From: Planctomycetota bacterium
GTDB lineage: Bacteria; Planctomycetota; Planctomycetia; Pirellulales; Pirellulaceae
Reading direction: 5' to 3'
Assembly: GCA_027619595.1 (NCBI GenBank)
Contig: JAQCHP010000044.1
Location: 1-34,948, forward strand
DNA length: 34,948 nt
In this document: positions 1,998-27,034 of the stretch, piece by piece
How positions within the stretch are numbered: the stretch's first letter is position 1
Layout: each line of letters opens with the position of its first letter
Notes under the pieces: generated by a model
What the model saw: the letters and a program-made list of their open reading frames with translations, nothing else
Database searches by the model: none
Told to the model about the DNA's origin: nothing
Made by a program: the position numbers and the translations under genes

Positions 1998-3380
1998 ATG
2001 AACAAAAAACTAGTCATTGAATTTGTAGCTCTGCAACGACTCGCGTCCGCGTTTGTCGCTGGGTGTGTTCTGACAACCACTGGCTGCGTGAAAATTGGAC
2101 ATGAAGTCCGTTACACCGAGCCGGGACGTGCGCTGAACCGGATTGAAGACCCTTATTATCACAGTCCGCAAACGGGGCGGATCGTGATGCGTCCGAAGAA
2201 GGCAGCCCAGTACTGCTATTCCGAGCCGGCATTCTACGGCTATGAAGCGACCTGCTGGCAACGTTGGCCCGATGGGTGGGTCGGTTGCCCTTGCCAAGAA
2301 GAAGAAATCGCAGTTGCCACCCCAATCCGTGGCCCGGAACAGTTGCCGGCCGCCGAAGCGGAGACTCCATCGCAAATCCACACTCCGCCGACATCCACCG
2401 CCCCCTCCACTCCACCGGCTGAACAGCCTTCCCCATCAGATCGCGGCAGCTATGACGATGCGTACGATCCAACGACGATTCCCGTCGAACCCCAAAGTGG
2501 CCTAGCGGATGCCACACGTACAGTTGAAGTACCACGGCCGTCCCAAGTAGAGACCGCCAACCTACCAACTGAGATTGCTCCAAAGGTCAATCAACAGGCG
2601 ACCAATCCGTCGCCTGCACCCATCCCCAACATCGACTCGTCCCCGCCGACACAGCGCCGAGCAATGCGGCGCAACATTCCTTCTCTGCCAGTAGCTGGTA
2701 CGGAGAGCATGCCCAAGTCCTCGAATGAGAAAACGATCGACCATGGGCCAGCCGGTATCGTCAATCCCTCCACTGAGCCAGCTCGCCCCACAACGGTAGC
2801 GACCACCCTGACGGACGATCACCAACCAGAATCGGCACCGGTAGCAATTCAGCACCTGTCCGATCCATTGGAGGAAGTTGATCCCCCGGTCCGTGAATGG
2901 AACGTCCGGGCAAACAGTAGCCGCGATGCCAAGCCCTCTTTCGCCGCGAACGAATCGGCGGAAGTGCCGTCGTTGACTCTGAGTGAAAAAACCACAGCAT
3001 CCACCCCGCTGGCACAATCGCCCAATCCGCACGCCACGGCTCATCCTCCAATCGAAGCGGCAACGACGGTGCCAACAACCCCGTTTGTCGCGATCTTGAC
3101 AGGTCCGATCGGCAGCGCATCGTCCAGAACGGAACGAATAATTTCGGATTCCGCCAATCAGCCGAACGCGTCGGAACTAAGGTTCGCGGCCACACAGGGG
3201 GAAGCAGCTCCCCTTCGCCATCGTTGGTCGCCGGAGCCTACAGATCCGGACACCGCGACGCTGGTATTTCGTCAGCAATCAGCGAACAACGGTATTGGCA
3301 ACGAAAAGAGACCTGCATCTCGGCCGGCTCTGTCAGCCAGGCCGAGCCCAGAATCCAAGAACGAAATACGGGTACGTTAG
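1998..3380 (+). CDS. Pro/Thr/Ser-rich lipoprotein, unknown function
   Basis: This 460-residue protein has an N-terminal lipoprotein-like signal, with VAGC giving Cys23 as the likely lipidated residue; TTGC at Cys30 is an alternative. A short conserved-looking head at residues 30-110 contains several Tyr, Trp and Cys residues (RYTEPGR, YYHSP, QYCYSEPAFYGY, CWQRWPDGWVGCPC). It is followed by about 340 low-complexity residues rich in Pro, Thr, Ser and Ala and probably disordered. I do not recognise a family. Its position after the export lipoprotein suggests an envelope protein of the same system, perhaps a peptidoglycan-spanning or stalk-like partner, but this is inference. Its stop codon overlaps the stop of the convergent NusG-like gene by 3 nt (gene overlap 4 nt). 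Confidence 0.7.
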   Translation: MNKKLVIEFVALQRLASAFVAGCVLTTTGCVKIGHEVRYTEPGRALNRIEDPYYHSPQTGRIVMRPKKAAQYCYSEPAFYGYEATCWQRWPDGWVGCPCQEEEIAVATPIRGPEQLPAAEAETPSQIHTPPTSTAPSTPPAEQPSPSDRGSYDDAYDPTTIPVEPQSGLADATRTVEVPRPSQVETANLPTEIAPKVNQQATNPSPAPIPNIDSSPPTQRRAMRRNIPSLPVAGTESMPKSSNEKTIDHGPAGIVNPSTEPARPTTVATTLTDDHQPESAPVAIQHLSDPLEEVDPPVREWNVRANSSRDAKPSFAANESAEVPSLTLSEKTTASTPLAQSPNPHATAHPPIEAATTVPTTPFVAILTGPIGSASSRTERIISDSANQPNASELRFAATQGEAAPLRHRWSPEPTDPDTATLVFRQQSANNGIGNEKRPASRPALSARPSPESKNEIRVR

Positions 3381-3934
3381 TCGATCGATTCGACTTGGTA
3401 ATCTTCAATTTCAACCGACACTCCCTGCTGAAGAAACTGGACAGCCAGCAGCAGTCGGGACTGGCCGCGGCGAGAAATGACGACCCCTTCCGCGCCAAGC
3501 ATCGGACCGGTCTTAATCCGCACCCCTTGCCCGGGCTCCAAGCGGCTCTCTAACGTCAGCGGAACTCCGCTGGTAATGAGTCGATCTAAATAGCGAAGGT
3601 CGCGCACCAAACGAGTCTGGTCAGGGACTTGTATTAGCCGAGAAATCCGATTCGTCGCCAAGACGCGAATTCGCTCCGATTCGGAGCCACAGACAAACAG
3701 GTACCCGGAAAACATCGGTACGTGAGACCGTGTGCGACGACCGCGGACCGCATTGTCTCGCTGAATCAACGGCAGGTAGAAGGGGACCTTCAATCCCAAC
3801 AGCGACCTGGCCAGGGCTTTTTCCTGACGCGATTTCGTGTAGACCGCCCACCATTGGCGATCTTCACCCAAGTCATGCTGGTTTTCGAGTACGTCCTCTG
3901 GAAACCGATTGGTTTCCTCATGCAAAATCGGCAT
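3377..3934 (-). CDS. NusG/RfaH-like specialised transcription elongation factor
   Basis: This 185-residue protein has an NGN domain at about residues 28-125 (WWAVYTKSRQEKALARSL, then PLIQRD and FSGYLFV) and a KOW-type C-terminal domain from about 134 (PGQGVRIKTGPMLGAEGVV). That is the architecture of NusG and of operon-specific paralogues such as RfaH, UpxY and LoaP, which bind paused RNA polymerase and suppress termination in long polysaccharide or natural-product operons. The housekeeping nusG normally sits beside secE and ribosomal-protein genes. A NusG homologue at a polysaccharide locus is therefore best read as a specialised antiterminator for the 27-kb run starting at 4634. The ATG at 3934 has a G-rich stretch (GGGGGCAAG) just upstream. 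Alternative hairpins lie in its upstream region at 3974-4005. Confidence 0.85.
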   Translation of the reverse strand: MPILHEETNRFPEDVLENQHDLGEDRQWWAVYTKSRQEKALARSLLGLKVPFYLPLIQRDNAVRGRRTRSHVPMFSGYLFVCGSESERIRVLATNRISRLIQVPDQTRLVRDLRYLDRLITSGVPLTLESRLEPGQGVRIKTGPMLGAEGVVISRRGQSRLLLAVQFLQQGVSVEIEDYQVESID

Positions 3935-3973
3935 CTTGCCCCCAGGTATCTACCACGAATGCCGTGTCATTTC

Positions 3974-4005
3974 AAATGGCGTGAAACGTTGCCATTTTGC
4001 AACGT
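3974..4005. promoter_or_regulatory. Inverted repeat with overlapping alternative stems
   Basis: ACGTTGC (3986-3992) and GCAACGT (3999-4005) form a perfect 7-bp inverted repeat with a 6-nt spacer. AAATGGC (3974-3980) and GCCATTT (3991-3997) form a second perfect 7-bp repeat that shares bases with the first, so only one stem can form at a time. It lies 40-71 nt upstream of the NusG-like start and about 190 nt upstream of the sigma-54-type -24 element. It could be an attenuator-like leader of the NusG-like gene, an operator, or an upstream activating site for a sigma-54 enhancer-binding protein. Confidence 0.4.
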
Positions 4006-4191
4006 ATCGTAGCGATCTGGCCGCGTGGCAACCACGGCGATCGGCTCGCGGCTTATGGCCAAACTCGTGGCAGGACCTCGCCGCAGGCCCGTTAAATATC
4101 TCCAAGCATTGACTTGGTAGGGACTTAGGTCTCGCCCCGCTCGTTGAGAGCTGATCCGCGGACGTCAGCCAGAAGGGGTGGCCGATTGGCA

Positions 4192-4207
4192 TGGCACGGC
4201 AAATGCT
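4192..4207 (+). promoter_or_regulatory. Sigma-54-type (-24/-12) promoter candidate
   Basis: The site reads TGGCACGGCAAATGCT. It matches the consensus TGGCACG-N4-TTGCW at every defined position except the first T of TTGC, and has the invariant GG-N10-GC spacing (4193-4194 and 4205-4206). Transcription would start near 4217-4219, giving a leader of about 415 nt before the exosortase start. Exosortase/EPS loci of the PEP-CTERM type in proteobacteria are known to be linked to sigma-54 and the PrsK/PrsR regulators, which makes the site plausible here. No rpoN or enhancer-binding protein gene is in the window. Confidence 0.5.
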
Positions 4208-4382
4208 TTTGGATGCTCAGCCAAGCCACCCAACATGGAAAACAAATCCAAGGTTCTACCCTACGCCAATGCCCCCCAAATGGATAAATCTCTGCGTTTC
4301 GAGTACTCCTTTATACCGTCGATCCTTGACGTTCGACACAAAGTCAATCAAAATTCAGGTTCATCAGGGAATGAATGAACGG

Positions 4383-4417
4383 GAAAGCGTCACTTCGAGT
4401 AGGACTCGAGCGCTTTC
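4383..4417 (+). promoter_or_regulatory. Leader hairpin 1 of the exosortase transcript
   Basis: GAAAGCG (4383-4389) pairs perfectly with CGCTTTC (4411-4417). Inside it, TCGAGT (4395-4400) pairs with ACTCGA (4404-4409) around an AGG triloop, with one flanking T-G wobble (4394/4410). The 3' strand is continuous and the 5' strand carries a 4-nt bulge (TCAC, 4390-4393). No T-tract follows, so it is not a classical terminator. Confidence 0.5.
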
Positions 4418-4434
4418 TCCACGGCGCAGTTCGC

Positions 4435-4461
4435 CAGGCGTTGTTAACTGTAATTCGCCTG
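4435..4461 (+). promoter_or_regulatory. Leader hairpin 2 of the exosortase transcript
   Basis: CAGGCG (4435-4440) and CGCCTG (4456-4461) are perfectly complementary with a 15-nt loop that contains GTTAAC. A competing small stem, GGCG (4423-4426) with CGCC (4432-4435), overlaps its 5' edge. No T-tract follows. Confidence 0.35.
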
Positions 4462-4568
4462 TACGGCACTGGCCGCTAGGAAAGCAAGCATAAGTCACAA
4501 GATTTTCCCCTGACGCACTCGCCACTGGCAAATGCCGGCTGCGGTGTTCTGAGATTGACCATGTTGCG

Positions 4569-4599
4569 GTTGTTCATGCTTGCGTCATACGCGAACAAC
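4569..4599 (+). promoter_or_regulatory. Leader hairpin 3, just upstream of the exosortase gene
   Basis: GTTGTTC (4569-4575) pairs perfectly with GAACAAC (4593-4599). Inside it, GCGT (4582-4585) pairs with ACGC (4589-4592) around a CAT triloop. As in hairpin 1, the 3' strand is continuous and the bulge (ATGCTT, 4576-4581) is on the 5' strand. It ends 34 nt before the exosortase ATG. Confidence 0.45.
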
Positions 4600-4633
4600 T
4601 TTCGCGCGCTAATCGTCCTATAAGAGTTGCATC

Positions 4634-5674
4634 ATGTCAAACACGTCTGGCAAAGGCAGAACTCACATTAAGCCGAGTCCTGGCTTACGTATGCAGTCGA
4701 CGTCGTCTGGCTCAACCGCAAGCACGGAAACTGCGCAGACACGAATGCGCGCTGTGATCATTTGGTCACTAGCGATTTTTCCAGTCTTTGCGTGGTCGTA
4801 TGCGAACACCTGGAGTGGCCTCTACGAAACATGGGACCGAGAACCAGACTATTCCCATGGCATGTTAGTTGCGCCGCTTGCGGCATTTTTTCTCTGGCTG
4901 CGTCGCGAAAAGTGTCCGTGGCATCGCATCGCCCCATCGGCTTGGGGACTGCTCGTGTTAGGGCTGAGCCTAGCACTGCGCTGGACCGCTGCACGGTTTT
5001 CACTCGACACAGTCGATGCATGGTCCATGATCGTCTGGTTCGCCGGATGGCTATGGCTCACCGGCGGGCACCGACTTGTCCTTTGGGCGCTCCCTTCTCT
5101 GGGGTTTCTGCTTTTTATGGTGCCGTTACCTTATCGATTGGAGAGTGTCCTCAGCGTTCCCTTGCAGAACGTCGCCACCCAGTTGAGCAGTTTCCTACTG
5201 CAATTACTGGGACAACCCGCCTTTGCGGAAGGGACAACCATCTTATTGGGCGATCAGCCTCTGCAGGTCGAACAAGCATGTTCGGGTCTAAGGATTTTTG
5301 TCGGCATCCTCGCACTTGCCTCAGCCACATTAATCCTGAGCGAACGCGAGTGGTGGGAACGCATCATCCTGATATTCGCCGTTATCCCGATCGCTCTACT
5401 GGCAAACGCAACTCGCATCGTGGTCACCGGCCTATTGTACCGGCACGTCTCTTCGGAGGCGGCGCGACATTTCAGCCATGACGTCGCGGGTTGGATCATG
5501 ATTCCACTGGCAGCATCCATGTTCCTTGCTACTCTTTGGTATTTGTCGCGACTCATGCCCGTAGTAGAGATTGTTGCCGTACGGAAGCAGCGGCAAAAAG
5601 GACGCTCAACTGCAGCGCGGGTGAGTGAACCTTCGGCGGATGTCGTGCCAAGCGTTTCCCATAACTCGACTTAA
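4634..5674 (+). CDS. Exosortase (EpsH-type membrane transpeptidase)
   Basis: This 346-residue polytopic membrane protein belongs to the exosortase/archaeosortase family, whose members cleave and transfer proteins bearing a C-terminal PEP-CTERM-type signal at the cell surface. After about 38 hydrophilic residues there are roughly eight membrane segments. The family motifs are present: DYSHG at 72-76, the catalytic Cys216 in QACSGLR, Arg261 in NATRIVVTG and His282 in HDVAGW, which together make the Cys-Arg-His catalytic set. The C-terminal 35 residues are hydrophilic. It lacks the fused EpsI domain found in XrtA; a separate EpsI-like gene lies at 12350. It may belong to the planctomycete-type exosortases, but the subtype cannot be fixed by eye. 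It is the first gene of the long run, preceded by a structured leader, with the next gene 70 nt downstream. Confidence 0.92.
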   Translation: MSNTSGKGRTHIKPSPGLRMQSTSSGSTASTETAQTRMRAVIIWSLAIFPVFAWSYANTWSGLYETWDREPDYSHGMLVAPLAAFFLWLRREKCPWHRIAPSAWGLLVLGLSLALRWTAARFSLDTVDAWSMIVWFAGWLWLTGGHRLVLWALPSLGFLLFMVPLPYRLESVLSVPLQNVATQLSSFLLQLLGQPAFAEGTTILLGDQPLQVEQACSGLRIFVGILALASATLILSEREWWERIILIFAVIPIALLANATRIVVTGLLYRHVSSEAARHFSHDVAGWIMIPLAASMFLATLWYLSRLMPVVEIVAVRKQRQKGRSTAARVSEPSADVVPSVSHNST

Positions 5675-5744
5675 CGATAAATCACCTGGCAACTACGAAT
5701 AACCGACTTACGATTACTAGCGAATCTTTGAGGTAACCATAAAG

Positions 5745-8015
5745 ATGACGATTGGCCCCCACGCACCGAAACCTACCGGCGCCCCAGAAGCAGCTCTAAT
5801 CGTGTCGCAGCAACCCATCGCGTACGCGCCGGTATTCCAGCCACCGCCGATCCGTCCGAACCGCCGCCACAATCAAGAGCCCGATTTAAACCCAGGGTTT
5901 TTGTGGTCAACCTGGAGTCATTGGTGGAAAGTCTTATTGCCTGTCAGCCTGTTGATCATGGTAGCAACGTGTGGTGTCGTGCTATTTATTACGTCACCGA
6001 AATACCGAGCGGAAGCCTATCTGACGATTACTCCCCAACATGACTTCCTCGTAACCCCGACTTCGCGTGAAGAAGGAAGCCGGTCGTTTGTGAATACTCA
6101 GATCGGATTCCTGCGAAGCCCGGTGGTACTGTCGAAAATTCTCGGACGGCCTGAAGTCGCAAGTCTCAAATTGATGAATCGAAATGACGCCGTAAAATGG
6201 CTTAGCCAACACCTCGAAGTGATCTCTAATAAAGACTCTGATTTGTGCATTGTCGCCGTAACAACGCCCGACCCGGACGCTTCTGCCGCGCTCGTCAACG
6301 CGATTGTGCAGACCTATCTACAATTGCAGGAAGAGAAAGAAGTCGCCAGAAACAGCTCCAAGGTTCGCACGTTATATAAAATCATGAGCGACCAAGAAAA
6401 GATCGTCACTCAAAAACAAGCTGAACTCAAGAACTTGTTGGGCGATGCGTTTGATAAAGATCCAAGTGCACGCACTCCGCTGGACCACAATATGATTGTA
6501 GAGTCCAACCCGCTTGCGGATTTGCAAAAGGAACTCCAAGACACAGACCTCGAAATAAGCATCACGAAAGCCGATATCGCCGGCATGAAGGATGGGACGC
6601 CCAAAGACAACCGTGGTGCTCAAGCGCACATCCATCGAACGGTAGAGTCTGACGAGAGCTTGGTGCAATTGAAACTTCAATTGAATCAAAAACGTGATTC
6701 GTTGACCAAACGGAAGGCTATCACCGAAGGAAAAGCCACCGGCGGCGGCAACACAAAGATGGAGCGTGAGGTGGCCGAAATAGAAAGGCGTATCGACGCA
6801 ACTCGTAAAAACCTCGTCAGAGACTATACAGAACAGTTTGCCACCTACGCGGAGTCCCAGCACCAAGACCTACTGAACGAAGCCACGCAGAACCTGAATA
6901 TGTTGACGGTCAAACGGGAGTATTTACATGAACAAATGGTCCAACGCAGGACCGACATGAAAGACTCTTCAGAGCATATCACTGGCATCAGTTTCGCTCA
7001 AAACAAGTACGATGAAGCCCGCGTGCTACTATCCAAGATTTCGGAACGACTCGCCCAACTCGAAACCGAGTCGGGAGCCGCGAGCCGCGTGCAGTTGATT
7101 GACCCTGCTGCCCGGCCCAACGTGCCGGAACCGATGGGACTGTGGAAAAAAATGTTGGCCGCCATCGCTGGCAGCCTCATCGTGCCCTTTGGGCTGGCTG
7201 TGCTGTGGGAACGTGCCGCGTGCCGCATTACCAGCGCTGACCAACTAGAAAACCAAATTGAACTGCCGGTGATTGGCGAAGTCGCACGCCTACCGCTCCG
7301 AGTTAAATCAGGCAATCGCACGCGAAATGCTTCAGCACGCAGCCTTGTGATGTTCGAAGAAAGCATCGACAGCATACGCACCAATTTGCTGCTACACAAA
7401 GAGAAAAACAATCTGCAGGTCATTGCTGTTTGCAGTTCGGTAGCGGCGGAGGGCAAGACAAGCGTATCATCGCAACTTGCGATTAGCCTAGCTCGCGCCA
7501 CGGGCCAACCGACACTGCTGATTGATGGAGATATGAGAGCTCCCGATCTGCACGGCGTATTTGAGATACCCAATGAAACAGGCTTGGTTCATGTGCTCGG
7601 TGGAGAGGCTACACCTCAGGTGGCGATCAATCGCGACTGGAGCGAGCATATACATATTTTGCCGGCGGGAAATCTGAATACGAGCCCCCATAATCTTCTA
7701 GGTCAGTCACAGTTCCAAAATCTCTTGGACGGACTGCGCACGCAGTATCGTTACATCATCGTGGATACTCCACCGGTACTAGCGGCCAGCGAAGCTCTGA
7801 TCATGGCAGCTGCGGCTGACGGTGTGCTGGTCTGCACGATGCACGAAAAGAGCCGGGGCGACCACTTGCGTCTCACGCACGAACGCCTTGTCGCAGCGGG
7901 AGCAAAACCCATTGGTACAGTGCTGAACGGAGTATCTACGCGGGCCTACGCCTACAAGTACGGGTCTTACTATTACGGAAATGGTCGTCATAACTACGCC
8001 TATAGCCGTTCCTAG
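5745..8015 (+). CDS. Fused Wzz-like chain-length regulator / BY-type tyrosine kinase
   Basis: This 756-residue polysaccharide co-polymerase is fused to a bacterial tyrosine autokinase (Wzc/CpsCD-type), which controls EPS chain length and export. After a Pro-rich cytosolic head there is a first membrane helix at about 62-83, a long periplasmic coiled-coil-rich region at about 90-460, and a second helix at about 468-488. The cytosolic kinase has Walker A ending G570-K571-T572 (AAEGKTS), Walker A' around D594-D596 (LLIDGDMRAP) and Walker B at D674 (IIVDTPP). The last 25 residues form a Tyr cluster (YAYKYGSYYYG, YAYSR), the expected autophosphorylation tail. GAGGT lies upstream of the ATG. It would act with the Wza-like lipoprotein and the Wzy-like protein. 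A matching phosphatase is not visible in the window. Confidence 0.93.
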   Translation: MTIGPHAPKPTGAPEAALIVSQQPIAYAPVFQPPPIRPNRRHNQEPDLNPGFLWSTWSHWWKVLLPVSLLIMVATCGVVLFITSPKYRAEAYLTITPQHDFLVTPTSREEGSRSFVNTQIGFLRSPVVLSKILGRPEVASLKLMNRNDAVKWLSQHLEVISNKDSDLCIVAVTTPDPDASAALVNAIVQTYLQLQEEKEVARNSSKVRTLYKIMSDQEKIVTQKQAELKNLLGDAFDKDPSARTPLDHNMIVESNPLADLQKELQDTDLEISITKADIAGMKDGTPKDNRGAQAHIHRTVESDESLVQLKLQLNQKRDSLTKRKAITEGKATGGGNTKMEREVAEIERRIDATRKNLVRDYTEQFATYAESQHQDLLNEATQNLNMLTVKREYLHEQMVQRRTDMKDSSEHITGISFAQNKYDEARVLLSKISERLAQLETESGAASRVQLIDPAARPNVPEPMGLWKKMLAAIAGSLIVPFGLAVLWERAACRITSADQLENQIELPVIGEVARLPLRVKSGNRTRNASARSLVMFEESIDSIRTNLLLHKEKNNLQVIAVCSSVAAEGKTSVSSQLAISLARATGQPTLLIDGDMRAPDLHGVFEIPNETGLVHVLGGEATPQVAINRDWSEHIHILPAGNLNTSPHNLLGQSQFQNLLDGLRTQYRYIIVDTPPVLAASEALIMAAAADGVLVCTMHEKSRGDHLRLTHERLVAAGAKPIGTVLNGVSTRAYAYKYGSYYYGNGRHNYAYSRS

Positions 8016-8075
8016 ACTTTGTCCTACCCCCCGTATTTTTCTGCTCTGTACTCGCTGCTTTGAGGTAGAAGCTCT

Positions 8076-11000
8076 ATGTCCAACCGTACATCGATGCAAC
8101 GCGTTATAGACCGCCGTTTCCTCGCAAAGTCGTTGGTCCTGGCCCTACTTCTCGTCGGATTAATTGCTGGAACCCACCGATACCAGCTCTACCGACTTTC
8201 GGGCCAGTTGCGTTCTGAGGCAACCCGTAATCGCGACGCGGGAAACTTTGGACGCGAAGCAAGAATGTTGTACAGTTATTTGCAACTTCACCCCGCCGAA
8301 CCTGAAGTGCTGGCCGACCTGGCCGTCGCGACCGATCGCTCAGGAACCAGTATTGGCACTGCCAATTCAGCAATTCAGTGGTATTACCAAAGCTTGGGAC
8401 ACCTCCCTGATCGCATTGACCTGCGAGGACGGCTCGCCGAACTTTTACTCAAAGTCGGACGTGTAGCTGAGGCAGCACAAGAAGCCGAGGCAGCGCTTAG
8501 CAAGAATCAACAAGATCCTGTATCGCTTCGCGTGCAGGCGATTGCCAAATACCGCGACGCACGCAATTCTGCTTCCAAGAGCCGCATATCGGAAGCCATT
8601 TCTACGCTAGAAACGGCTCATGCCAACCTTCCCGCCGCTCATGATGTCGTAGAAACGCTAATCGAAGCATACGAATTCCAAGGATTAGATCAGGACGGTG
8701 GCGGGACGAAAGCGACCGAAGCTTTGCACCAACTGGTAGCGTCCGCGGCCGACGCGCGGAGTCACATCGTCCGAGCTCGATACCGCCTGCGAAACAATTT
8801 TCCCGGTGTTTCTGAAGATCTCCACGCCGCCGCCGACCTATCACCCAAAGATCCGTCGTCGTGGCTTGCCGTCGCGATTGGCGCTCACCGATCAGGAGAG
8901 ATTCCCTTAGCCATCAAGTCGTACACTCGATTGCGTGATTTGGCACCAACGAACGTACAAGCGTATATTGGACTCGGCGAATGTGAGCGGGCGACAGGCG
9001 ATACGGATGCGGCGCAGAAAACATGGGAAAGCGGCCTTCAAAACTGCCCTCGAGACCAGTTTCCGCTGCTCTCGCGAATCGCTGAGTTGCACTTGGATCT
9101 TGGCGATGCGCAAGCGGCACGCATCTTTTTGGACCGCTCTGCCACAGACCTCGCCCAGCAAGTACCCACATTTGAAAATCGGGCGCAACGCGTCAAATGG
9201 CAACAGACATGGAGCCTACTTGAGGGACGCTGGCTTGTTTCGCAGCACCGGTGGATCGAAGCAGAAACAGCGATTGCCACCGTCCTGTATGAAAACGTGA
9301 GTGATGCAGAGGATGACATTGGAAGCCACTGGCGCGAACGTACTGCACGGTTGACAGTCGCTGAAATCTATCGACAAACGGGCCGTACGAAGGAGGCCGG
9401 CGAAGTGTTTTCGCAGTTGGCCAAATCGAATTCGGCCGACGCACCACGCGCCCTTTTGTCTTCCGGTATGTCGTTCGCGGAAAAAAGTGATATCGAACGT
9501 GCCATCAAGATTTGCGAGAAGGCCCTTGAGCACACCGATCCACCGGCTGAAGGCTGGCTACTATTGGCTTCACTTCAGCTAGAAAAATTGGCCCGCGAAA
9601 ACCCTGGTGATCGCGACTGGTCCACGTTTGACCGTTCGGTAAGAAAGTACCAAGCCGTTTCACCCGTGTCTTGGAAGGCAACCCTATTACGTGCACAGGC
9701 TGTCCTGCTTCGAAACCCGCGCCAAGTCGCCCCTGCCTTAGGGATGCTCAAGCAAAACGAGGCCACTTGGACACATGACGCAGAGGCCTGGGCACATATT
9801 GCGGCATTCACATCCCGACTCGGAGAAATCGACGTCGCACAACAGGCGGCTGAACGCTACTTCACGCTCATTGATGATCCCGCCAGCCGATCGCACTTTC
9901 AGGCGTTGCTGGCACTGCAACGCGACGATGTAACGTCAGCCTCGAAGATCCTTGATCAAATTCCAGCCAACAACTTGTCTTCGACCGAGCAGCAAGTAGC
10001 GAACGCGGAACTGCGTCGTCATATCTACGCTCGCATGGGGAATTGGCCGGCCGAACGAAATTCATTGTCAAGCCTCGTGAAACACGACGCAGCGGACCCG
10101 AATCATCTGCGGCAACTCGTGCAACGCTCATGGGAAATGAACGAACCATTAGATGATCTATTGAATCAACTAATTGCCCAGGAGGGATCCAACAGCCCCT
10201 ACGTCGCGATCACGAGCATTCGAGCTTGGTCCCAAAAGAATCCTAACTCCCCTCTCGACGATCCCGCGGCAATTCCAGCGGACATCCAAGAACGAATGGA
10301 ATCACTGCGTCGCCACTACTCTGAATGGCCCGTGCGACTCATCATGCTGGGAGAACTTGCTGAGCGTCATGGAACAAACTTGGATGCCGCCAATTACTAC
10401 TTGCAGGTCGCCAAGAGCGGATACCTTTCGACCTACTATCGCGCACTGGCTTTACGCTGCTTACTTACCGAAGAGACATGGCCGGCTGCGATGGTAGTCC
10501 TGGAAACAACGGACTGGAACGAATCCGCGACTCTCGTATCCTCCGATGCGAAATACTCTCCAACCGTCCAAGATCAACTTCTGAGGGCTCTTCGCGAATC
10601 GCAACTATCCGCCGGCCGTCAAACGAACGATTCCTCGATGGCCCGCTGGAACCTGGTCGTTGCAACCCTCTTGAAACGAGGGCAAGGCGGCACACCGCCA
10701 TTTCCCTCCTCTCCCGATGCGCAAACTCTGCTCGCAAAATACCCACACGATCAACTCAGCCAACTTGTCGGCCAGTGGTGCATTCGCTCCGAGTCCTCTC
10801 CGAATGGACCGATGGATCCGCTGCCTACCGCGTCCAAACAATCGTCGACGGCCTGGGATGCCGAGCACAAATTGCTTGCCGGCGAACCACAGCAAGCCAG
10901 AGACCTTTACCTCCACCTCCTTGATCGTCAAGACAGCGTGCCAACTCCACGACTGTGGGCCCTGCAGTTGCGATATGCGTCGCTCTTGGACCACACAGCC

Positions 11001-12272
11001 ACGGAAGAAAGACAATCGCTGTGGAAGACCGTGGTAAAAATCCCACACGCGAGTGAAACGGCACGACTCTTTGCCAGACAATTCCCCAGTCTGGGTGAGT
11101 CGCTGCATCATGCTACCCAGGGAATCGACGGACAAACATCCTTCCACGTTGGGCAAGATGTCCCCGAGCAACGATTGCTATTCGCAGACGAATTGGAGAA
11201 GAACGGACAGCTTCAGGCAGCTCGCGCAGAATACGAGCGGCTGTTAACGGGCGATCCGCAATTCGCCATCCATGTGGCTTACACAAGATTTCTGGTGAGG
11301 ACACAAGACTGGCTGGAATTAGCCAAGCAATTGCCCCACCTCAGCGCACTTCAAAGCGAAGCCTGGGAGACCACCTGGGCAACCGCGCACGTCAAATTTC
11401 ACGAAGGGCGCGTTTCTGAAGCAATGCAAGAAATCGACAGCGCAGTACAGCGCATGCTTGCTTCTGACCAAGATCCAATGTCTCTTGCTCAAGACCTAGC
11501 ACGAGCCGCCGAACTCTATACGGATCTGGATGCCAACGATTTTGCTCAACAAGTTTACGGCCTGTTGATCGAACAGGTGCCTTACCATATTACTGGCCTG
11601 GCAATGTCGCTTGGCAAAGAGGAACGCTGGCAGGACGCTACAGCACTTTGTCGGGCAGGAATTGACACCGAGCATGACTATCTAGCGATTCTAAGCCTCG
11701 CGAAACTGGCCGAACTTCCAGTACCAATCGACATCCTCGAATCCCAAGTCCTGCCCGAGGTGGAAAAGAAATTATCATTATACGGTGATAGGGCGGAGTT
11801 TCTGTTCCATCTCAGTAACATTCGTATCCGCCAGTTGAACTCGCCAGAGGCGATTGCACTCCTGCGGCAAGTAACCGAACTTGACCCTGGCCACGTGATT
11901 GCCTGGAATAATTTGGCCGCTCTCCTGGCCGAATCTCCCGCGACGCAAACGGAAGCAAAAAGGTGCGCCGAACACGCCATTTCATTGACGGCCGAACCGC
12001 TGGCTACCGTCCTCGATACGCTAGCACTGGTGCACTTGCATCGTGGCAACTTAGCCGAAGCCACCCAACTTTTGGAGCGCGTGACCACCTCATTTCAGGG
12101 AGACGACCCGCGATTTCACTTTCATCTGGCCTGGGTATACCAGCTGCAGAACGATCGGGAAATGGCGGCGATGGCCCTTACAAAGGCCCAACAATTGGAT
12201 CTCCCGACACGATACCTTACTCAGCTGGAACAGAACCGGTACGAACAGTTAAAAGCTGAACTAACCCCGTAG
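8076..12272 (+). CDS. Giant membrane-anchored TPR-repeat protein
   Basis: This 1398-residue protein has an N-terminal hydrophobic helix at about residues 15-31 that probably anchors it facing the periplasm. Helical tetratricopeptide-like repeats then fill nearly the whole length; recognisable units include ALAEL-, A..Y..LL- and DP-type turns such as LDPGHVIAWNNLAALLAE near the C-terminus. TPR proteins are scaffolds rather than enzymes. Exosortase/EPS loci of the XrtA type carry a TPR protein (PrsT) in a similar place, and the alginate system uses the TPR protein AlgK, so a scaffold for the polymerisation/export machine is likely. It is much longer than those relatives. GAGGT lies 11 nt before the ATG. 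It sits 60 nt after the kinase gene and 77 nt before the EpsI-like gene. Confidence 0.8.
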   Translation: MSNRTSMQRVIDRRFLAKSLVLALLLVGLIAGTHRYQLYRLSGQLRSEATRNRDAGNFGREARMLYSYLQLHPAEPEVLADLAVATDRSGTSIGTANSAIQWYYQSLGHLPDRIDLRGRLAELLLKVGRVAEAAQEAEAALSKNQQDPVSLRVQAIAKYRDARNSASKSRISEAISTLETAHANLPAAHDVVETLIEAYEFQGLDQDGGGTKATEALHQLVASAADARSHIVRARYRLRNNFPGVSEDLHAAADLSPKDPSSWLAVAIGAHRSGEIPLAIKSYTRLRDLAPTNVQAYIGLGECERATGDTDAAQKTWESGLQNCPRDQFPLLSRIAELHLDLGDAQAARIFLDRSATDLAQQVPTFENRAQRVKWQQTWSLLEGRWLVSQHRWIEAETAIATVLYENVSDAEDDIGSHWRERTARLTVAEIYRQTGRTKEAGEVFSQLAKSNSADAPRALLSSGMSFAEKSDIERAIKICEKALEHTDPPAEGWLLLASLQLEKLARENPGDRDWSTFDRSVRKYQAVSPVSWKATLLRAQAVLLRNPRQVAPALGMLKQNEATWTHDAEAWAHIAAFTSRLGEIDVAQQAAERYFTLIDDPASRSHFQALLALQRDDVTSASKILDQIPANNLSSTEQQVANAELRRHIYARMGNWPAERNSLSSLVKHDAADPNHLRQLVQRSWEMNEPLDDLLNQLIAQEGSNSPYVAITSIRAWSQKNPNSPLDDPAAIPADIQERMESLRRHYSEWPVRLIMLGELAERHGTNLDAANYYLQVAKSGYLSTYYRALALRCLLTEETWPAAMVVLETTDWNESATLVSSDAKYSPTVQDQLLRALRESQLSAGRQTNDSSMARWNLVVATLLKRGQGGTPPFPSSPDAQTLLAKYPHDQLSQLVGQWCIRSESSPNGPMDPLPTASKQSSTAWDAEHKLLAGEPQQARDLYLHLLDRQDSVPTPRLWALQLRYASLLDHTATEERQSLWKTVVKIPHASETARLFARQFPSLGESLHHATQGIDGQTSFHVGQDVPEQRLLFADELEKNGQLQAARAEYERLLTGDPQFAIHVAYTRFLVRTQDWLELAKQLPHLSALQSEAWETTWATAHVKFHEGRVSEAMQEIDSAVQRMLASDQDPMSLAQDLARAAELYTDLDANDFAQQVYGLLIEQVPYHITGLAMSLGKEERWQDATALCRAGIDTEHDYLAILSLAKLAELPVPIDILESQVLPEVEKKLSLYGDRAEFLFHLSNIRIRQLNSPEAIALLRQVTELDPGHVIAWNNLAALLAESPATQTEAKRCAEHAISLTAEPLATVLDTLALVHLHRGNLAEATQLLERVTTSFQGDDPRFHFHLAWVYQLQNDREMAAMALTKAQQLDLPTRYLTQLEQNRYEQLKAELTP

Positions 12273-12349
12273 CCGTGCAACTCATTTTTATGCGGGATTT
12301 TCCTTGGTGGACTAGGCCAAATCGACTACACTGAATCTCGACTACTTTT

Positions 12350-13078
12350 ATGTTTATTATGGTTCGAAAAATCATGTCCGACCGACCGACCGTCTATATT
12401 TTATTGGCTGTCATAGTCACGATTACGTCGGCTACGCTCCATGGGAGATTGGTGGGCCGTTGGACCTCACAAAGTGCGTTAGCAACGTTGGGCCAAGAGC
12501 TTGCGGGTCTACCAACAACCCTGGGCAGTTGGTATCAGGTCGCCACCAACGAACTGCCGAAGGAATCGGTCAAGATGCTGCAGTGCTCCGCCCACCAACA
12601 TCGGACGTACCGAGACTCGGTGACGGGCGCGACGATGGATCTAATTATCGTGCTCGGCCCACCGGGCCCCACCTCCGTTCACATACCGGAAATTTGCTAT
12701 CCGAGCCAAAACTATAAGATTGTCTCGCAGCGCAGTCGAAAGAATTTTTCAGACAAGCGATCCGAGCAGTTGCAGGACTCCGAGAAAAAGACATCTGTAG
12801 ACGAATTTTGGAAAGTGACTTTTAAGACCAACGACGTTGCAGCTAAGAATGTGCAAGTGTACTACGGCTGGAGTCAAGGCGAGCGATGGGAAGCGCCGGA
12901 GCAGCCACGGTTCCACTATTCGGGAAGTCCGTGGCTCTACAAACTACAACTGGCCACCAGTAGCCTAGACGACGCTTCGCAGAGAGACACCGAAAGATTT
13001 TTTCAGGAACTACTCCCTCAATTGCGCGACCACATGCAAACAAAGCTAACGAGCGCCAAAAAAAGCAACCAAGATTAA
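12350..13078 (+). CDS. EpsI-like exosortase-associated protein
   Basis: This 242-residue protein has an N-terminal membrane helix or signal (about residues 12-30) followed by an EpsI-type domain. Recognition rests on the HIPEICYPSQNY motif, which corresponds to the 'H.PE.C.P..G' signature of exosortase-associated EpsI proteins, the preceding LIIVLGPPGP strand, and the typical length. EpsI proteins accompany exosortases in EPS loci; their biochemical role is not settled. In XrtA the domain is fused to the exosortase, whereas here it is a separate gene 6.7 kb downstream. The start is uncertain: in-frame ATGs at 12350, 12359 and 12374 all lack a clear ribosome-binding site. Confidence 0.8.
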   Translation: MFIMVRKIMSDRPTVYILLAVIVTITSATLHGRLVGRWTSQSALATLGQELAGLPTTLGSWYQVATNELPKESVKMLQCSAHQHRTYRDSVTGATMDLIIVLGPPGPTSVHIPEICYPSQNYKIVSQRSRKNFSDKRSEQLQDSEKKTSVDEFWKVTFKTNDVAAKNVQVYYGWSQGERWEAPEQPRFHYSGSPWLYKLQLATSSLDDASQRDTERFFQELLPQLRDHMQTKLTSAKKSNQD

Positions 13079-13168
13079 CGCAAAATTATATTGTCAACAG
13101 CCACTTCAGATGAATGTGACGAATCATTGATGATCTTCACTGATTGATATTTAAAGGACGAACATCCG

Positions 13169-14044
13169 ATGCCCTCCAGTGTGAAAAACTATAACACTCA
13201 AGAGAACGCAACTACGCGATTGGACGCTGTTATCAACACGCACGTTCCAACCTTTCGCTGCAAGACATATGTCATAGAGCGGCTTATGGGACTGTTGTTT
13301 TTAATCATCGCGTGCCCCGTCATTGTGATGCTCGCTGTCTGCGTGCGTATGACTTCGCATGGTCCGGGCCTTTACCGCCAGATTCGCGTGGGACGCCACG
13401 GCCGTATCTTCACGATGCTCAAAATTCGAACGATGACTGTAGACGCAGAAAGCCTGACGGGTCCGCAATGGAGTCGCGTCAATGACCCGAGAATTACGGC
13501 TCTTGGACGGTTCATCAGAAAGTCCCATTTGGACGAATTGCCGCAGCTTTGGAACGTGGCATGTGGCGACATGGCACTCATGGGACCGCGACCAGAACGA
13601 CCCGAGTTAGTCCACATACTGGCAGAGTACGTGCCAGGCTATCTCAATCGATTGGCGATCCAACCAGGAATTACCGGACTCGCACAAATCAATCTGCCAC
13701 CCGACACCGACGTGGAGAGCGTTCGGCGAAAGCTGGTGCTGGACATGGAATATATTAGCACGGCCACTCTCTGGCTTGATTTCCGCATGTTCGTTTGGAC
13801 AATCTTGCGGCTAGTTGGTTGCCCGGCCCGGCTAGCAACGCCGTTACTAAGACTGAGCCGCCAAGTACCTTGGAGCCCCACAGGAACATCCAGCGAGCCC
13901 CTAACCATCGAAGCAATCTTGGCTATTGAAGAACAACGGCAGTCGCAATTGCACGACGTTGACTTTCCTTCTGCGGACGAGCCCCAAGACCTTTCGGAGC
14001 GGGAAGTTTCCACCGTAGGGCTGCGGAGCGCTGCCGAAGCGTAA
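13169..14044 (+). CDS. Initiating sugar transferase (monotopic phosphoglycosyltransferase)
   Basis: This 291-residue member of the bacterial sugar transferase family transfers a sugar-1-phosphate from a nucleotide sugar to undecaprenyl phosphate, the first step of repeat-unit synthesis at the inner face of the membrane. It has one hydrophobic re-entrant helix at about 38-60 and the family signatures YRQIRVGR, MLKIRTM (83-89), the Asp-Glu catalytic dyad D122-E123 in DELPQLWN, and MGPRPERPE near 138-146. The long multi-helix N-terminal domain of WbaP/WcaJ proteins is absent, so this is the minimal type. About 60 extra residues follow the domain and look disordered. AAGGA precedes the start, and the deacetylase begins 11 nt after the stop. 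Confidence 0.93.
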   Translation: MPSSVKNYNTQENATTRLDAVINTHVPTFRCKTYVIERLMGLLFLIIACPVIVMLAVCVRMTSHGPGLYRQIRVGRHGRIFTMLKIRTMTVDAESLTGPQWSRVNDPRITALGRFIRKSHLDELPQLWNVACGDMALMGPRPERPELVHILAEYVPGYLNRLAIQPGITGLAQINLPPDTDVESVRRKLVLDMEYISTATLWLDFRMFVWTILRLVGCPARLATPLLRLSRQVPWSPTGTSSEPLTIEAILAIEEQRQSQLHDVDFPSADEPQDLSEREVSTVGLRSAAEA

Positions 14045-14055
14045 GAACCGTCGCC

Positions 14056-14931
14056 ATGAAGTGTTTGTATAATGCATTTACGGTCGACGTGGAGGACTAT
14101 TTTCAGGTCTCCGCGTTCGAGAAGACCGTTCGTCGCAGTCAATGGTCGAACTACGATTTGCGTGTGGTCGAAAGCACAGAGCGGTTGCTGGAGTTGCTCG
14201 GTCGCCACAATGTACGTGGCACATTTTTTATTTTGGGTTGGATTGCCCGGCAGTGCCCGCAGCTTGTACGCAAGATTGACGAAGCGGGACACACGATTGG
14301 GTCCCACAGCTATTGGCATCGCCTCGTCTATGAGATGACCCCTGATGAATTCAGAACCGACCTGAAAATGTCCCGGCAGGTCTTAGAAGATCTTACCGGT
14401 AAGACGGTAACCAGTTATCGCGCGCCAAGTTTTTCGATTACGCGCAGGTCTTGGTGGGCACTGCAGATCTTGGCGGAAGAGGGATTTAAGTATGACTCCA
14501 GCATTTTCCCGGTCTATCATGATCGGTATGGTGTCCCCGACGCCCAGACGGAGATCCACACAATAGAAACCGAAGCAGGGACCCTCCAGGAATTCCCACC
14601 CGCCGTATATCCTATCGCCAAATGGCGACTTCCTGTATCGGGCGGGGGATATTTCCGACTGTACCCGTATCGAGCTAGTCAACACATGTTACGCCAGGTG
14701 AATCACAACGATCGTCCATTCGTATTCTACGTACATCCTTGGGAAGTCGACCCCAACCAACCTGTCGTTAAGGCTGGCTCCCGCATGTCCCAGTTCCGGC
14801 ATCGGGTCAATCTGAAATCCAATTACGCCAAATTGGATCGGCTATTGAGCGATTTCCGTTTCACATCGATGGAAAGAGTCCTGGAGGGGGCCCACACAAC
14901 CCAGGTTGTGAACTCGTCTCAAACGACCTGA
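14056..14931 (+). CDS. Polysaccharide deacetylase, exosortase-locus type
   Basis: This 291-residue NodB-homology deacetylase removes N- or O-acetyl groups from sugars using a divalent metal. The motifs are complete: FTVDVEDYF supplies Asp11 and Asp14, HSYWH supplies the metal ligands His84 and His88, YRAPSFS follows at 121-127, and a late HPWEVDP motif ends the barrel. The combination of TxDVEDYF at the very start, YRAPSFSI and HPWE with a short C-terminal extension matches the deacetylase subgroup regularly found in PEP-CTERM/XrtA EPS loci. There is no signal peptide, so it probably acts on lipid-linked or nucleotide-bound intermediates in the cytoplasm (inference). It follows the sugar transferase after 11 nt and is followed by a 210-nt gap with a terminator-like hairpin. 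Confidence 0.9.
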   Translation: MKCLYNAFTVDVEDYFQVSAFEKTVRRSQWSNYDLRVVESTERLLELLGRHNVRGTFFILGWIARQCPQLVRKIDEAGHTIGSHSYWHRLVYEMTPDEFRTDLKMSRQVLEDLTGKTVTSYRAPSFSITRRSWWALQILAEEGFKYDSSIFPVYHDRYGVPDAQTEIHTIETEAGTLQEFPPAVYPIAKWRLPVSGGGYFRLYPYRASQHMLRQVNHNDRPFVFYVHPWEVDPNQPVVKAGSRMSQFRHRVNLKSNYAKLDRLLSDFRFTSMERVLEGAHTTQVVNSSQTT

Positions 14932-15046
14932 ACACAACCACGGTCCCCAAAGCCAGTACAGCCGGTAAATCCACTAGGCCGTATCGTAACGGTTGTAGCA
15001 AAAATACCGAAATCAAGTGGAAACTGATGGATCAACCACTTCGTGG

Positions 15047-15080
15047 GCCCGTCCACGTCAATCGTGACGGGCTACGTTTT
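15047..15080 (+). terminator. Terminator-like hairpin inside the gene run
   Basis: GCCCGTC (15047-15053) pairs with GACGGGC (15066-15072), and ACG (15055-15057) pairs with CGT (15063-15065) across a one-base bulge, leaving a 5-nt loop. The stem is followed by TACGTTTT, so the T-tract is short and slightly displaced. It sits in the only large gap between 4634 and 28572 and could reduce read-through into the glycosyltransferase gene. Confidence 0.4.
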
Positions 15081-15141
15081 AACTTAATGCCCGTCGTACT
15101 TACCGGTCGGAAAATGCTTAATTGCACCCGACGGGAACGGA

Positions 15142-16242
15142 GTGCGCGCTGACCGCATACATAGCATGAGATCAACTGAGCCATCTCGGGTAACGACAGA
15201 GCGTGTTTCCCACGATGATTTTAATGACAGCCCGTCGATCTCGGTCATCGTCCCCGTCCGCAACGAAGGCCAACACCTGGCGAACACACTCGACATGCTT
15301 GCCAACCAGTCCTATCCCAAAGATCGTTTCGAGATCATCGTTGTGGACGGCGAGTCTACCGACAACACTCGTACGATTGCGCAAAGATATTCTGAGGAAT
15401 TTACTAACATCCGCTGGCTCCCGAATCCCCAGATCTGGTCGAGTTCTGCGCGAAACATCGGAATTCACGGATCACACGGCGAAATCGTACTTATTGTCGA
15501 CGGTCATTGCCAGATATCTGGCGACCAACACTTGCAGAGTATTGCGAACGGATTTCGCGATCCCACGATTGCCTGCCTGGGACGCCCTCAGCCGCAAGAC
15601 GTTCGGCAAGCGACACTTTTACAGCAGGCGATCGCAGCAGCCCGTTCCTCGAGAATCGGACATCACCCCAATTCATTTATTTATGCGAAGCAAGCGCAAG
15701 TCGTTCCTGCACATAGCGTCGCGGTCGCATATCGCCGTACCGTATTCGATATTGTGGGTTACTTTGACGAGACTTTCGACGCATGCGAAGACGTTGAACT
15801 CAACCATCGCATCGACAAAGCGAACCTTAAGTGCCTTTTTGATCCGCGTGTCGCTGTTGCTTACCATCCACGATCGAATCTCAGCGGACTGTTTCGGCAG
15901 TTATCACGCTACGGTCGGGGCCGCATTCGACTTGGGCGAAAACACCGCGATACCCTCAGCATCAAGACATTGATCCCGGCCGGGTGGCTGATTTACATGG
16001 CGATGATTCCGTTTGGCGGCTGGTTTCCAGAACCGATTCGTACTGTCTATTGGACCGGCGTAGGCATCTATTTCTTGACCATTCTACTGGCGTCGATAAG
16101 CAACGCCCGCCATAAACATCGCCTTGCGCTTTTATTTTGGTTACCGGTCGTTTTTCTGACAATTCATGCAGGGGCCGCCTGGGGGCTTCTCAGTGAGTTG
16201 CTGTGGCCACAAGTCAGTCCCCGTCCCGAAATGACGGGCTAG
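15142..16242 (+). CDS. Family 2 glycosyltransferase with C-terminal membrane helices
   Basis: This 366-residue GT-A fold enzyme has SISVIVPVRNEG at about 32-43, the nucleotide-binding IIVVDGESTDNT at about 65-76, the VDGH metal-site region near residue 115, and CEDVELNHR as the catalytic-acid region near residue 215. Two or three C-terminal membrane helices (about 275-350) tether it to the membrane, as in ExoA-like EPS glycosyltransferases. It should add one sugar to the undecaprenyl-linked repeat. The start is ambiguous: GTG at 15142 has GGGA just upstream, whereas ATG at 15166 has no clear site. The next gene starts 10 nt after the stop. Confidence 0.88.
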   Translation: MRADRIHSMRSTEPSRVTTERVSHDDFNDSPSISVIVPVRNEGQHLANTLDMLANQSYPKDRFEIIVVDGESTDNTRTIAQRYSEEFTNIRWLPNPQIWSSSARNIGIHGSHGEIVLIVDGHCQISGDQHLQSIANGFRDPTIACLGRPQPQDVRQATLLQQAIAAARSSRIGHHPNSFIYAKQAQVVPAHSVAVAYRRTVFDIVGYFDETFDACEDVELNHRIDKANLKCLFDPRVAVAYHPRSNLSGLFRQLSRYGRGRIRLGRKHRDTLSIKTLIPAGWLIYMAMIPFGGWFPEPIRTVYWTGVGIYFLTILLASISNARHKHRLALLFWLPVVFLTIHAGAAWGLLSELLWPQVSPRPEMTG

Positions 16243-16252
16243 AACAGCGGTT

Positions 16253-17617: not shown

Positions 17618-17637
17618 CTGCACAGGAATCCCAGTAC

Positions 17638-19191: not shown

Positions 19192-19196
19192 GCTAG

Positions 19197-21335: not shown

Positions 21336-21372
21336 CTCGGCCACCGAGTCTACGTGGAACGCTCGAACGAAC

Positions 21373-25840: not shown

Positions 25841-25888
25841 GCCCATCTCCTTCTGCCAAAATTCCTTCAGGTATCGCGTACGAGCAAC

Positions 25889-27034
25889 GTGCCTCCCATT
25901 CCGATCACCTACGTTGTCGCCTCGATGCAGACCTCGGAAGCGGGTACCGAAGGTCATTTGTTGCGGCTGATTCGTGGGCTCGATCGATCCAGGTTCTCGC
26001 CACGATTGATTGTTCTACAGTCAAGCCAGTGGCTTGATCGGTTTCAGGATGACCGTGTTCCCGTGGATTGCCTGGAATTTCAATCGTTCTCACGTCTTCG
26101 AGACTGGAACTGCTTGGGACGACTTTCGCGACACTTCCGTCAGTATTCCACACAAATCGTGGAACTCCATTTCACGGACGCCCATTTTTTAGGTAGCCTG
26201 GCGGCAAGACAAGCAAGGATCCCCGTCGTTATCTCGTGCCGGCGGGACCTGGGACACCAACATACCTCGAAGAGTCTGTTAATGACGCGGTTCGCCAACC
26301 CATGGATTAGCCGGTTCCTGGCTAATTCTCACCTTGTGGCGGAGCGCATGTCACAACGGGAAGGGGTTGCGCGACATCGCTTCGACGTCATTCCCAATGG
26401 CGTCGATCTTGCTGCGTTTGACTTGCATACACAACGAGAACCCTCACCAGAGTTTCTACAGGCAACACAGGGAAAGCGAATTGTTACACTCCTGGCCAAC
26501 CTTCGGCCCGTCAAGAATGTCCAGGGATTCCTGGCCGCAGCACAACAGGTCGCATCGATTATTCCGGATGTTTGCTTTGTAATTCTCGGACATGGGGAAC
26601 AAGCCGATGCATTGCGGGCTCAAGCTGAACAACTCGGGATTGCGCGTTCGATTTGCTGGATGGGATCGGTCACAAATCCCGCTGCCTATTTGGCTCATTC
26701 CCACGTGGGATGCCTGACTTCTCACGCGGAAGGATTTTCTAACGCTATCGTCGAATACATGGCGGCAGGAATTCCGGTAGTAGCGACACGTGTTGGGGGT
26801 GCCGAAGAGGCCATCGTCGAAGGAATCACCGGACATTTGGTCGATCCAAACGACATGCCAAGATTGGCGCAATGTATTGCGAATCTCTTGCAGGACGAGA
26901 CAAGACGAAGCACAATGGGGAGGGCCAGTCGACAAAGGGTCGAAGAGTTATTCACGCATCAGATTCAACTGGCTGCATATCAGGCGTATTACGAACGCCT
27001 GCTGAAAGCGGCCGACCAACGCGAGTTGGCATAG
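25889..27034 (+). CDS. Family 4 glycosyltransferase
   Basis: This 381-residue GT-B enzyme starts from a GTG at 25889. The start is supported by the immediate first beta strand (PITYVVASM) and donor loop (SEAGTEGHLL). The C-terminal half has the typical NLRPVKNVQGFL, VILGHGEQ and the E-x7-E-type donor site EGFSNAIVEYMAAGIPVV with GGAEEAI. It would transfer one sugar of the EPS repeat, donor unknown. It lies 48 nt after the AlgD-like gene and 50 nt before the next glycosyltransferase. Confidence 0.9.
   Translation: MPPIPITYVVASMQTSEAGTEGHLLRLIRGLDRSRFSPRLIVLQSSQWLDRFQDDRVPVDCLEFQSFSRLRDWNCLGRLSRHFRQYSTQIVELHFTDAHFLGSLAARQARIPVVISCRRDLGHQHTSKSLLMTRFANPWISRFLANSHLVAERMSQREGVARHRFDVIPNGVDLAAFDLHTQREPSPEFLQATQGKRIVTLLANLRPVKNVQGFLAAAQQVASIIPDVCFVILGHGEQADALRAQAEQLGIARSICWMGSVTNPAAYLAHSHVGCLTSHAEGFSNAIVEYMAAGIPVVATRVGGAEEAIVEGITGHLVDPNDMPRLAQCIANLLQDETRRSTMGRASRQRVEELFTHQIQLAAYQAYYERLLKAADQRELA

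Follow-up and report, generated by a model that had tools for sequence, protein, structure and literature searches.

A NusG paralogue and an ops-like leader element at exopolysaccharide gene clusters of Planctomycetota as a probable counterpart of RfaH/ops

In the draft genome of a member of the Pirellulaceae (Planctomycetota; GCA_027619595.1; 5.18 Mb, 281 contigs, 96.4% complete), a NusG-like protein, here called NusGp, is encoded divergently from a run of exopolysaccharide (EPS) genes that opens with an exosortase. The locus raises the question of where such a protein would be recruited to RNA polymerase. The window analysed is the full contig JAQCHP010000044.1 of 34,948 nucleotides (nt). 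An earlier note on this DNA placed the recruitment at hairpins of the exosortase leader. In this work, comparison with related genomes pointed to another place: the likely recruitment site is a conserved 31-nt element about 11 kb from NusGp, at 15123-15153, ahead of the second half of the run. The element, its leader position, its link to NusGp across genomes and the covariation of its hairpin are directly supported. NusGp and the element together probably constitute a planctomycete RfaH/ops-like system, in which pausing, binding and antitermination are inferred from sequence and from analogy. The features on which the argument turns are as follows.

3377-3934, minus strand: NusGp, a specialised NusG paralogue with NGN and KOW domains, 185 amino acids (Pfam NusG, genome census, AlphaFold2/Foldseek).
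4634-5674, plus strand: exosortase (Pfam Exosortase_EpsH, 2.8e-60), which opens the EPS run.
15123-15153, plus strand: ops-like leader element TGCACCCGACGGGAACGGAGTGCGCGCTGAC, 39.2 bits with a matrix from relatives' exosortase leaders.
15166-31759, plus strand: co-directional glycan run of 16.6 kb with the element at its head.

The motif was derived from 66 upstream regions of exosortase relatives, the window included and locus L070 left out. The word ACGGAGT occurred in 35 of the 66 regions, and the commonest 7-mers of one shuffled set were GC-rich words found in up to 24. Likewise, 10-mers such as CGGAGTGCGC and GGACGGAGTC were present in 12-13 regions, whereas no 10-mer of one shuffled set exceeded 4. 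The shared element is 31 nt long, is located behind a hairpin and has the core ACGGGRACGGAGTSYGCGC. A 31-nt matrix built from 33 aligned sites, the window not among them, was run over 1.65 Mb of loci that overlap in part; counting the training sites, it gave 74 unique sites above 20 bits, and the reversed matrix gave 0. The window site thus played no part in the definition of the motif. When the host draft genome was searched by pattern with up to 3 mismatches, one close match was obtained, at 15130-15149 of the window with 1 mismatch; there was one further match elsewhere with 3 mismatches, and the reversed pattern matched once. Since the element lies at 15123-15153 in this genome, its main target would be the 15166-31759 glycan run, whose first gene (GT2, glycosyltransferase family 2) has its likely ATG at 15166. 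In 21 of 115 cases, a promoter-like sequence (TTGAC-N16-18-TAnnnT) lies 66-344 nt 5' of the element, vs 1.0 in shuffled sequences (maximum 3), and therefore the element is probably situated in a transcribed leader. At the gathering score, Rfam covariance models matched neither JUMPstart (RF01707) nor any other family in the window, and a scan of 10 element-bearing loci returned one tRNA and nothing else. Upstream of the exosortase in loci L225 and L240, elements stand in tandem about 50 nt apart, one of a GTCAC type and one of a GCAA type; in L131 and L133, two elements upstream of the exosortase face outward on opposite strands, as if serving two divergent operons.

The exact 20-nt core was found in 53 stretches among 84,980 species genomes. 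By title, 47 of these are planctomycete (Pirellulales, Gemmatales, Phycisphaerae, Sedimentisphaerales and others), counting one from Kuenenia, which we take to be a planctomycete; the remaining ones are 4 from Streptomyces or Nocardiopsis, 1 from Nealsonbacteria and 1 from an uncultured bacterium. The 4 actinobacterial matches and that of Kuenenia miss much of the conserved flanks, with scores of 18.0-23.8 bits compared with 25.3-44.9 for the other best sites. Of 60 genomes comprising the host and 59 relatives, 45 have NusGp; across the host's order it was detected in 219 of 396. The element with up to 1 mismatch is present in 100 of the 396, where the reversed pattern gave 4 matches in total. 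NusGp was detected in 94 of the 100 element-positive genomes vs 125 of the 296 others (94/6/125/171, odds ratio 21). The exosortase was a poor predictor of the element (81/19/183/113, odds ratio 2.6), and NusGp predicted it both within exosortase-positive genomes (78/3/85/98, odds ratio 30) and among exosortase-negative ones (16/3/40/73, odds ratio 9.7). The p-values of such tables are overstated because genomes are not independent samples and drafts miss genes.

The positions of the sites were compared in a census of 126 listed sites (first element places per genome, with the repeats of genome G278 excluded) and 150 listed NusGp places. Among these listed sites, 23 lie directly upstream of NusGp on the same strand at 11-833 nt (0.02 expected), 6 directly downstream on its strand and 1 near it on the other strand; a further 6 are within 15 kb of NusGp and 7 farther away on the same contig. 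With 2 mismatches allowed in the 60 genomes, 25 of 91 matches had NusGp or the exosortase no farther than 5 kb away (0.25 expected), and 15 of the 25 had NusGp itself in this range; the exosortase share of this proximity is not independent, because the motif was derived from exosortase leaders. Among 65 fetched exosortase loci, 5 of them obtained via NusGp, NusGp was upstream of the exosortase within about 3.3 kb in 18, half of these divergent (9) and half co-directional (9). In the divergent loci of G003, G004 and G033, the elements face the exosortase.

NusGp is one of the 2 NusG-domain genes found in the host draft genome. It scores 37.5 bits with Pfam NusG, has NGN and KOW domains and differs from the genome's housekeeping NusG, so it belongs to the specialised NusG paralogues (NusG-SP); the description of a standalone NGN-KOW protein divergent from the exosortase run, made in the earlier note, is borne out. 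The AlphaFold2 model (mean predicted local distance difference test score 80) has an NGN fold and an all-strand KOW region; strands rather than an alpha-hairpin are seen in one model, which cannot judge fold switching. Its structural neighbours in Foldseek are NusG, RfaH and Spt5, with modest TM-scores. Among named families, the best score was for UpxY (NF033644, 83.2 bits, below the cut-off of 100); the RfaH equivalog model gave 64.4 bits (curated cut-off 144.5) and the LoaP model NF033641 26.1 bits (cut-off 125). All three models were matched by 6 of the 6 members of the NusGp alignment A2. The RfaH residues K10, H20, R23 and R73 contact ops (PMC5995543). K34 of NusGp is aligned to K10, and the R73 region has an ambiguous alignment to N95/R96. 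Together with its planctomycete relatives, NusGp appears to form a family of specialised NusG paralogues with a presumed RfaH-like action.

The element consists of a hairpin and a core, which in the window are found at these positions.

15103-15135, plus strand: hairpin that directly precedes the element and runs into it; GTCGG (15106-15110) pairs with CCGAC (15128-15132), and CC/GG pairs lengthen the stem.
15135-15145, plus strand: predicted mini-hairpin of the core, GAAC-GGA-GTGC, in which this copy has an A.G mismatch; counterpart of the ops hairpin C-GGTA-G.

The predicted hairpin before the core has covariation support across sites. Its 3' arm occupies motif positions 3-8, just 5' of the core, and its arms change together (TGGGTT/AACCCA, TCGGTT/AACCGA, TCAGTT/AACTGA, TCATTT/AAATGA, TCGTTT/AAACGA). 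Stems of at least 6 pairs ending at position 8 were found in 20 of 116 sites vs 4.5 in shuffles. The 5' arms were unalignable by MAFFT because the hairpin loops are too variable, and an arm-swap test was used instead, in which the own stems of the 116 sites scored 3.49 vs 3.07 ± 0.09, with a maximum of 3.39 in 5000 permutations. The core, GRAC-GGA-GTSY, is foldable as well: among the 465 column pairs of the 116 sites, mutual information peaks at columns 13 and 21, which form a canonical pair in 55 sites vs 31.4 in permutations (maximum 42). A G stands in column 12 of all 116 sites, and the core ends in T-(G/C)-(C/T)-G in 102. The elemental pause consensus has the register G-11 ... T-3 ... Y-1 G+1, and the core fits this consensus. 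In the pause register, C-GGA-G is at -8 to -4, and we take the C-GGTA-G of ops to lie at -9 to -4. C-GGA-G is complete in ACGGAGT sites, and there are a few single-letter core variants in the matrix set, e.g. ACGAAGT. The ops element matches the consensus pause (PMC7819879), and in its hairpin C3 pairs with G8 around GGTA (PMC5995543).

We hypothesize that RNA polymerase in the leader of a polysaccharide cluster would meet the RNA hairpin and then ACGGGRACGGAGTSYGCGC, at which it would pause in the consensus-type register. NusGp would recognise the C-GGA-G mini-hairpin, and most likely do so on exposed non-template DNA, as RfaH does at ops. It would then replace NusG on the polymerase, sustain elongation through the long run and probably exclude Rho/NusG-dependent termination. 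In relatives, the element precedes the exosortase, NusGp itself (possible autocontrol) or other EPS units.

Several observations weigh against this reading. The link between the element and NusGp could reflect shared membership in EPS operons. The element is lacking at up to 1 mismatch in 125 of the 219 NusGp-positive genomes, and 6 element-positive genomes are without detectable NusGp, each with one NusG-domain gene that is unmatched by the NusGp profile. As many as 83 of the 126 listed sites are on contigs without a listed NusGp, and in the window the two are 11 kb apart. The 91 two-mismatch matches compare with 47 for the reversed pattern, so they are a mixture in which about half of the weaker ones may be due to chance. 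In the protein, the ops contacts H20 and R23 of RfaH are not retained by alignment. The hairpin of the window copy forms a stem no better than shuffles (z -0.5), and a stem of at least 5 pairs at the tested anchor is present in only 25 of 116 sites, 13.7 being expected by swapping. In the majority class with G-U counted, the own arm scores 3.04 vs 3.27 for minority arms, and if Watson-Crick pairs alone count, the values are 3.04 and 2.46. At columns 13-21, A.G and G-C are equally frequent, 43 each, and the canonical pairs amount to the 55 sites given above. Finally, terminator-like hairpins are not in excess around the sites (23 vs 24.1 ± 4.0 downstream, 28 vs 23.3 ± 2.9 upstream), which would make suppression of Rho-dependent polarity likelier than readthrough of hairpins. 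An attenuator right after the element was rejected for lack of a terminator excess.

The best surviving alternative is recruitment at the RNA level, in which NusGp would bind the nascent hairpin, as LoaP does on the dfn hairpin, and not the non-template DNA. In its favour are the hairpin with covariation support directly 5' of the core and the precedent of LoaP, a NusG paralogue with an RNA hairpin as its binding site (PMC12691694). However, the best-conserved letters are 3' of the hairpin, in a core with the layout of ops and the pause register, and the LoaP model score of NusGp is far under its cut-off, so we consider this alternative possible and rather doubtful. Element and protein subtypes are correlated. 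GCAA-type elements occur with K/R34 and R96 of NusGp and GTCAC-type elements with L/M/I34 and C96 (with exceptions, among them L052, L066 and L225), residue 96 being in the loop equivalent to RfaH 70-75. The 28 pairs comprise 27 with the element adjoining NusGp and the window pair 11 kb apart, and leave aside the duplicates L243 and L214 as well as NusGp rows that are short or gapped at residue 34; Fisher p is 2e-5 for residue 34 and 1e-6 for residue 96. In a tree-aware check, there were only 2-3 independent pairs and the sign test was not significant, therefore the correlation is no proof of a code. It is a tentative idea that the element joins a LoaP-like nascent-RNA hairpin to an RfaH-like ops DNA hairpin and that the subtypes are a specificity code. 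If true, the RNA hairpin would sit directly before the pause-embedded non-template DNA hairpin, combining both known modes of recruitment, and the subtypes would be a natural code steering elongation factors to separate glycan operons across the phylum.

It is unlikely that another factor, e.g. CsrA acting on the GGA loop, recognises the element and that NusGp is a mere co-member of the EPS operons. A GGA placed in a hairpin loop is typical of CsrA sites, and CsrA was matched in 60 of 60 genomes (host and 59 relatives). For this very reason, though, it cannot explain the presence or absence of the element, which tracks NusGp even with exosortase status held fixed. Moreover, about 30 conserved positions far exceed what CsrA requires. 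CsrA is multiplied in these genomes, with 3-14 matches each and 8 in the host; E. coli has one copy, and the planctomycete multiplicity is unusual by comparison.

The model of the earlier note, in which hairpins of the exosortase leader (4208-4633) recruit NusGp and a single 27-kb operon is transcribed past its internal terminators with the help of NusGp, also appears improbable. It is bound up with four further features.

4192-4206, plus strand: predicted sigma-54-like promoter TGGCACGGCAAATGC, 1 mismatch to the -24/-12 consensus, 427 nt before the exosortase ATG.
4326-4354, plus strand: weak sigma-70-like promoter TTGACG-N17-CAAAAT; 9 such matches vs 11.1 expected, not above chance.
4381-4419, plus strand: strong hairpin in the exosortase leader, z -4.0.
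15042-15076, plus strand: terminator-like strong hairpin followed by TTTT, between the halves of the run, z -3.7.

In its favour are the divergent NusGp, one strong hairpin and the sigma-54-like site, common to two relatives. The GG-N10-GC site is present as described; it is near-consensus with the invariant GG and GC, and RpoN is encoded in the host genome. Matches with 1 mismatch are near chance within the window (4 vs 1.74 ± 1.38 expected), and matches with up to 1 mismatch occur in 6 of the 66 exosortase upstream regions, window included, vs 0.8 in shuffles (maximum 2). Two relatives with divergent NusGp, L041 and L138, have perfect matches, so a sigma-54 input at the exosortase, common to these two, is plausible. 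Of the three strong hairpins claimed for the leader, that at 4381-4419 stands out, but the whole 426-nt leader folds with z -1.8 only, and 6 of 100 shuffles were equally good. The leader contains no element by matrix scan, and a degenerate copy at about 4419, suspected by eye, was rejected for want of matrix support. Conservation of the leader hairpins, which the note had proposed as a check, was not found: region 3935-4633 has no relative among the fetched loci by blastn (best E 0.11) or nhmmer. With neither element nor relative, these hairpins were rejected as a recruitment site. Terminator-like hairpins inside the run, a further part of the model, are at chance number (19 vs 16.5 ± 3.7 and 20 vs 18.7 ± 3.4). 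Nor is a single 27-kb operon established, for the widest gap of the run, 234 nt at 14932-15165, holds both the hairpin-TTTT at 15042-15076 and the element. Transcription of the upstream unit may stop at that hairpin, about 46 nt 5' of the element. For the exosortase half, 4634-14931, a separate transcription start is probable, perhaps a sigma-54-dependent one. Comparative evidence favours recruitment of a NusG paralogue by a leader element at such a cluster, but not the exosortase leader as the site.

A role as double-stranded operator or mobile recombination site is very improbable for the element: G278 has 29 matches with copies in a cassette-like array on two contigs, but 29 of the 30 listed sites close to NusGp are on the NusGp strand, promoter-like sequences lie upstream, the hairpin covaries, and outside G278 there are at most 3 matches per genome. 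In G278 (L248, L249), where the 29 core matches were counted with up to 1 mismatch, the two contigs read carry the copies in arrays of short open reading frames (ORFs) that look cassette- or integron-like; most copies are preceded by a TTGCTT-N17-TACGAT-like promoter and followed by a CAATGG...CCATTG inverted repeat.

The EPS genes of the window are co-directional from the exosortase (4634) as far as 31759, judging by ORFs, Pfam and curated family models.

4634-14931, plus strand: first half of the run, with exosortase, Wzc-like kinase, TPR protein, EpsI-like protein, sugar transferase and deacetylase.
15166-31759, plus strand: glycan run, in the order GT2, Wzy-like ligase, ORF517, heparinase, AsnB, GT4, UDP-sugar dehydrogenase, GT4, GT4-like, AsnB, GT4.

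Within the glycan run are a heparinase-like gene (19197-21335) and two asparagine-synthase-like genes (PF00733; 21196-23292 and 28686-30584). By the exosortase cluster, a rhomboid protease is encoded at 32545-33330 on the minus strand, with weak similarity to rhombosortase (33.5 bits vs a cut-off of 84). In other genomes, a Pfam scan of 88 ORFs 3' of pattern-found sites (two tandem sites of L225 and L240 removed, some sites giving no ORF) gave 83 families, the commonest being of polysaccharide type, with no control set scanned. Among the 25 families listed, epimerase/dehydratase types were found in 11 of the 88, Polysacc_synt_2 in 10, UDP-sugar dehydrogenases in 5, exosortase, GT1-type glycosyltransferases and Wzc-type AAA in 4 each, and DegT, GT4 and Wzz in 3 each. 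Ten downstream ORFs examined singly included NeuB, GH92 and glycosyltransferases, and also an amine-oxidase-like protein and an ABC transporter.

Like RfaH with ops/JUMPstart in gammaproteobacteria, the planctomycete pair would join a specialised NusG paralogue to a short leader element at long polysaccharide operons, and it shares the GG-rich pause-like sequence with a C-GG(T)A-G mini-hairpin and the lysine K10/K34. It differs from RfaH in its score below the cut-off and in a KOW domain predicted as strands where RfaH has an autoinhibiting alpha-hairpin. The element is longer than ops, has its own upstream hairpin, belongs to another phylum and sometimes adjoins the NusGp gene (29 of 126 among the listed sites). 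UpxY, of Bacteroides capsule operons, is the top named family for NusGp and is likewise encoded with polysaccharide operons (PMC7593976, PMC7819879). LoaP of Bacillus resembles NusGp as a NusG paralogue with long operons and a leader hairpin (PMC12691694), unlike it in model score and in that there is no excess of intrinsic terminators near the planctomycete element. The Rhodopirellula-1 candidate RNA was reported from Proteobacteria and Planctomycetes, its second table column being taken as possible cis-regulation (Weinberg 2010, PMC2864571). It could overlap the element; by its table row it differs in its range, as none of the 53 exact-core matches has a proteobacterium-titled record.

By title and abstract start, no open-access paper was found on NusG paralogues or ops-like elements in planctomycetes, nor on antitermination in the control of polysaccharide/exosortase genes in Planctomycetota. 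A literature search by motif letters gave, among the matches listed, none that looks related, and 'planctomyc' is absent from the available main text of PMC7593976, PMC7819879, PMC12691694 and PMC13015549. In 2020, the recruitment mode of operon-encoded NusG paralogues was called unknown (PMC7593976). A defined element tied to one family of NusG paralogues across many genomes makes recruitment directly testable. It also gives a handle on the control of polysaccharide and exosortase genes in Planctomycetota, and the planctomycete system would be an independent evolutionary case for comparison with RfaH/ops.

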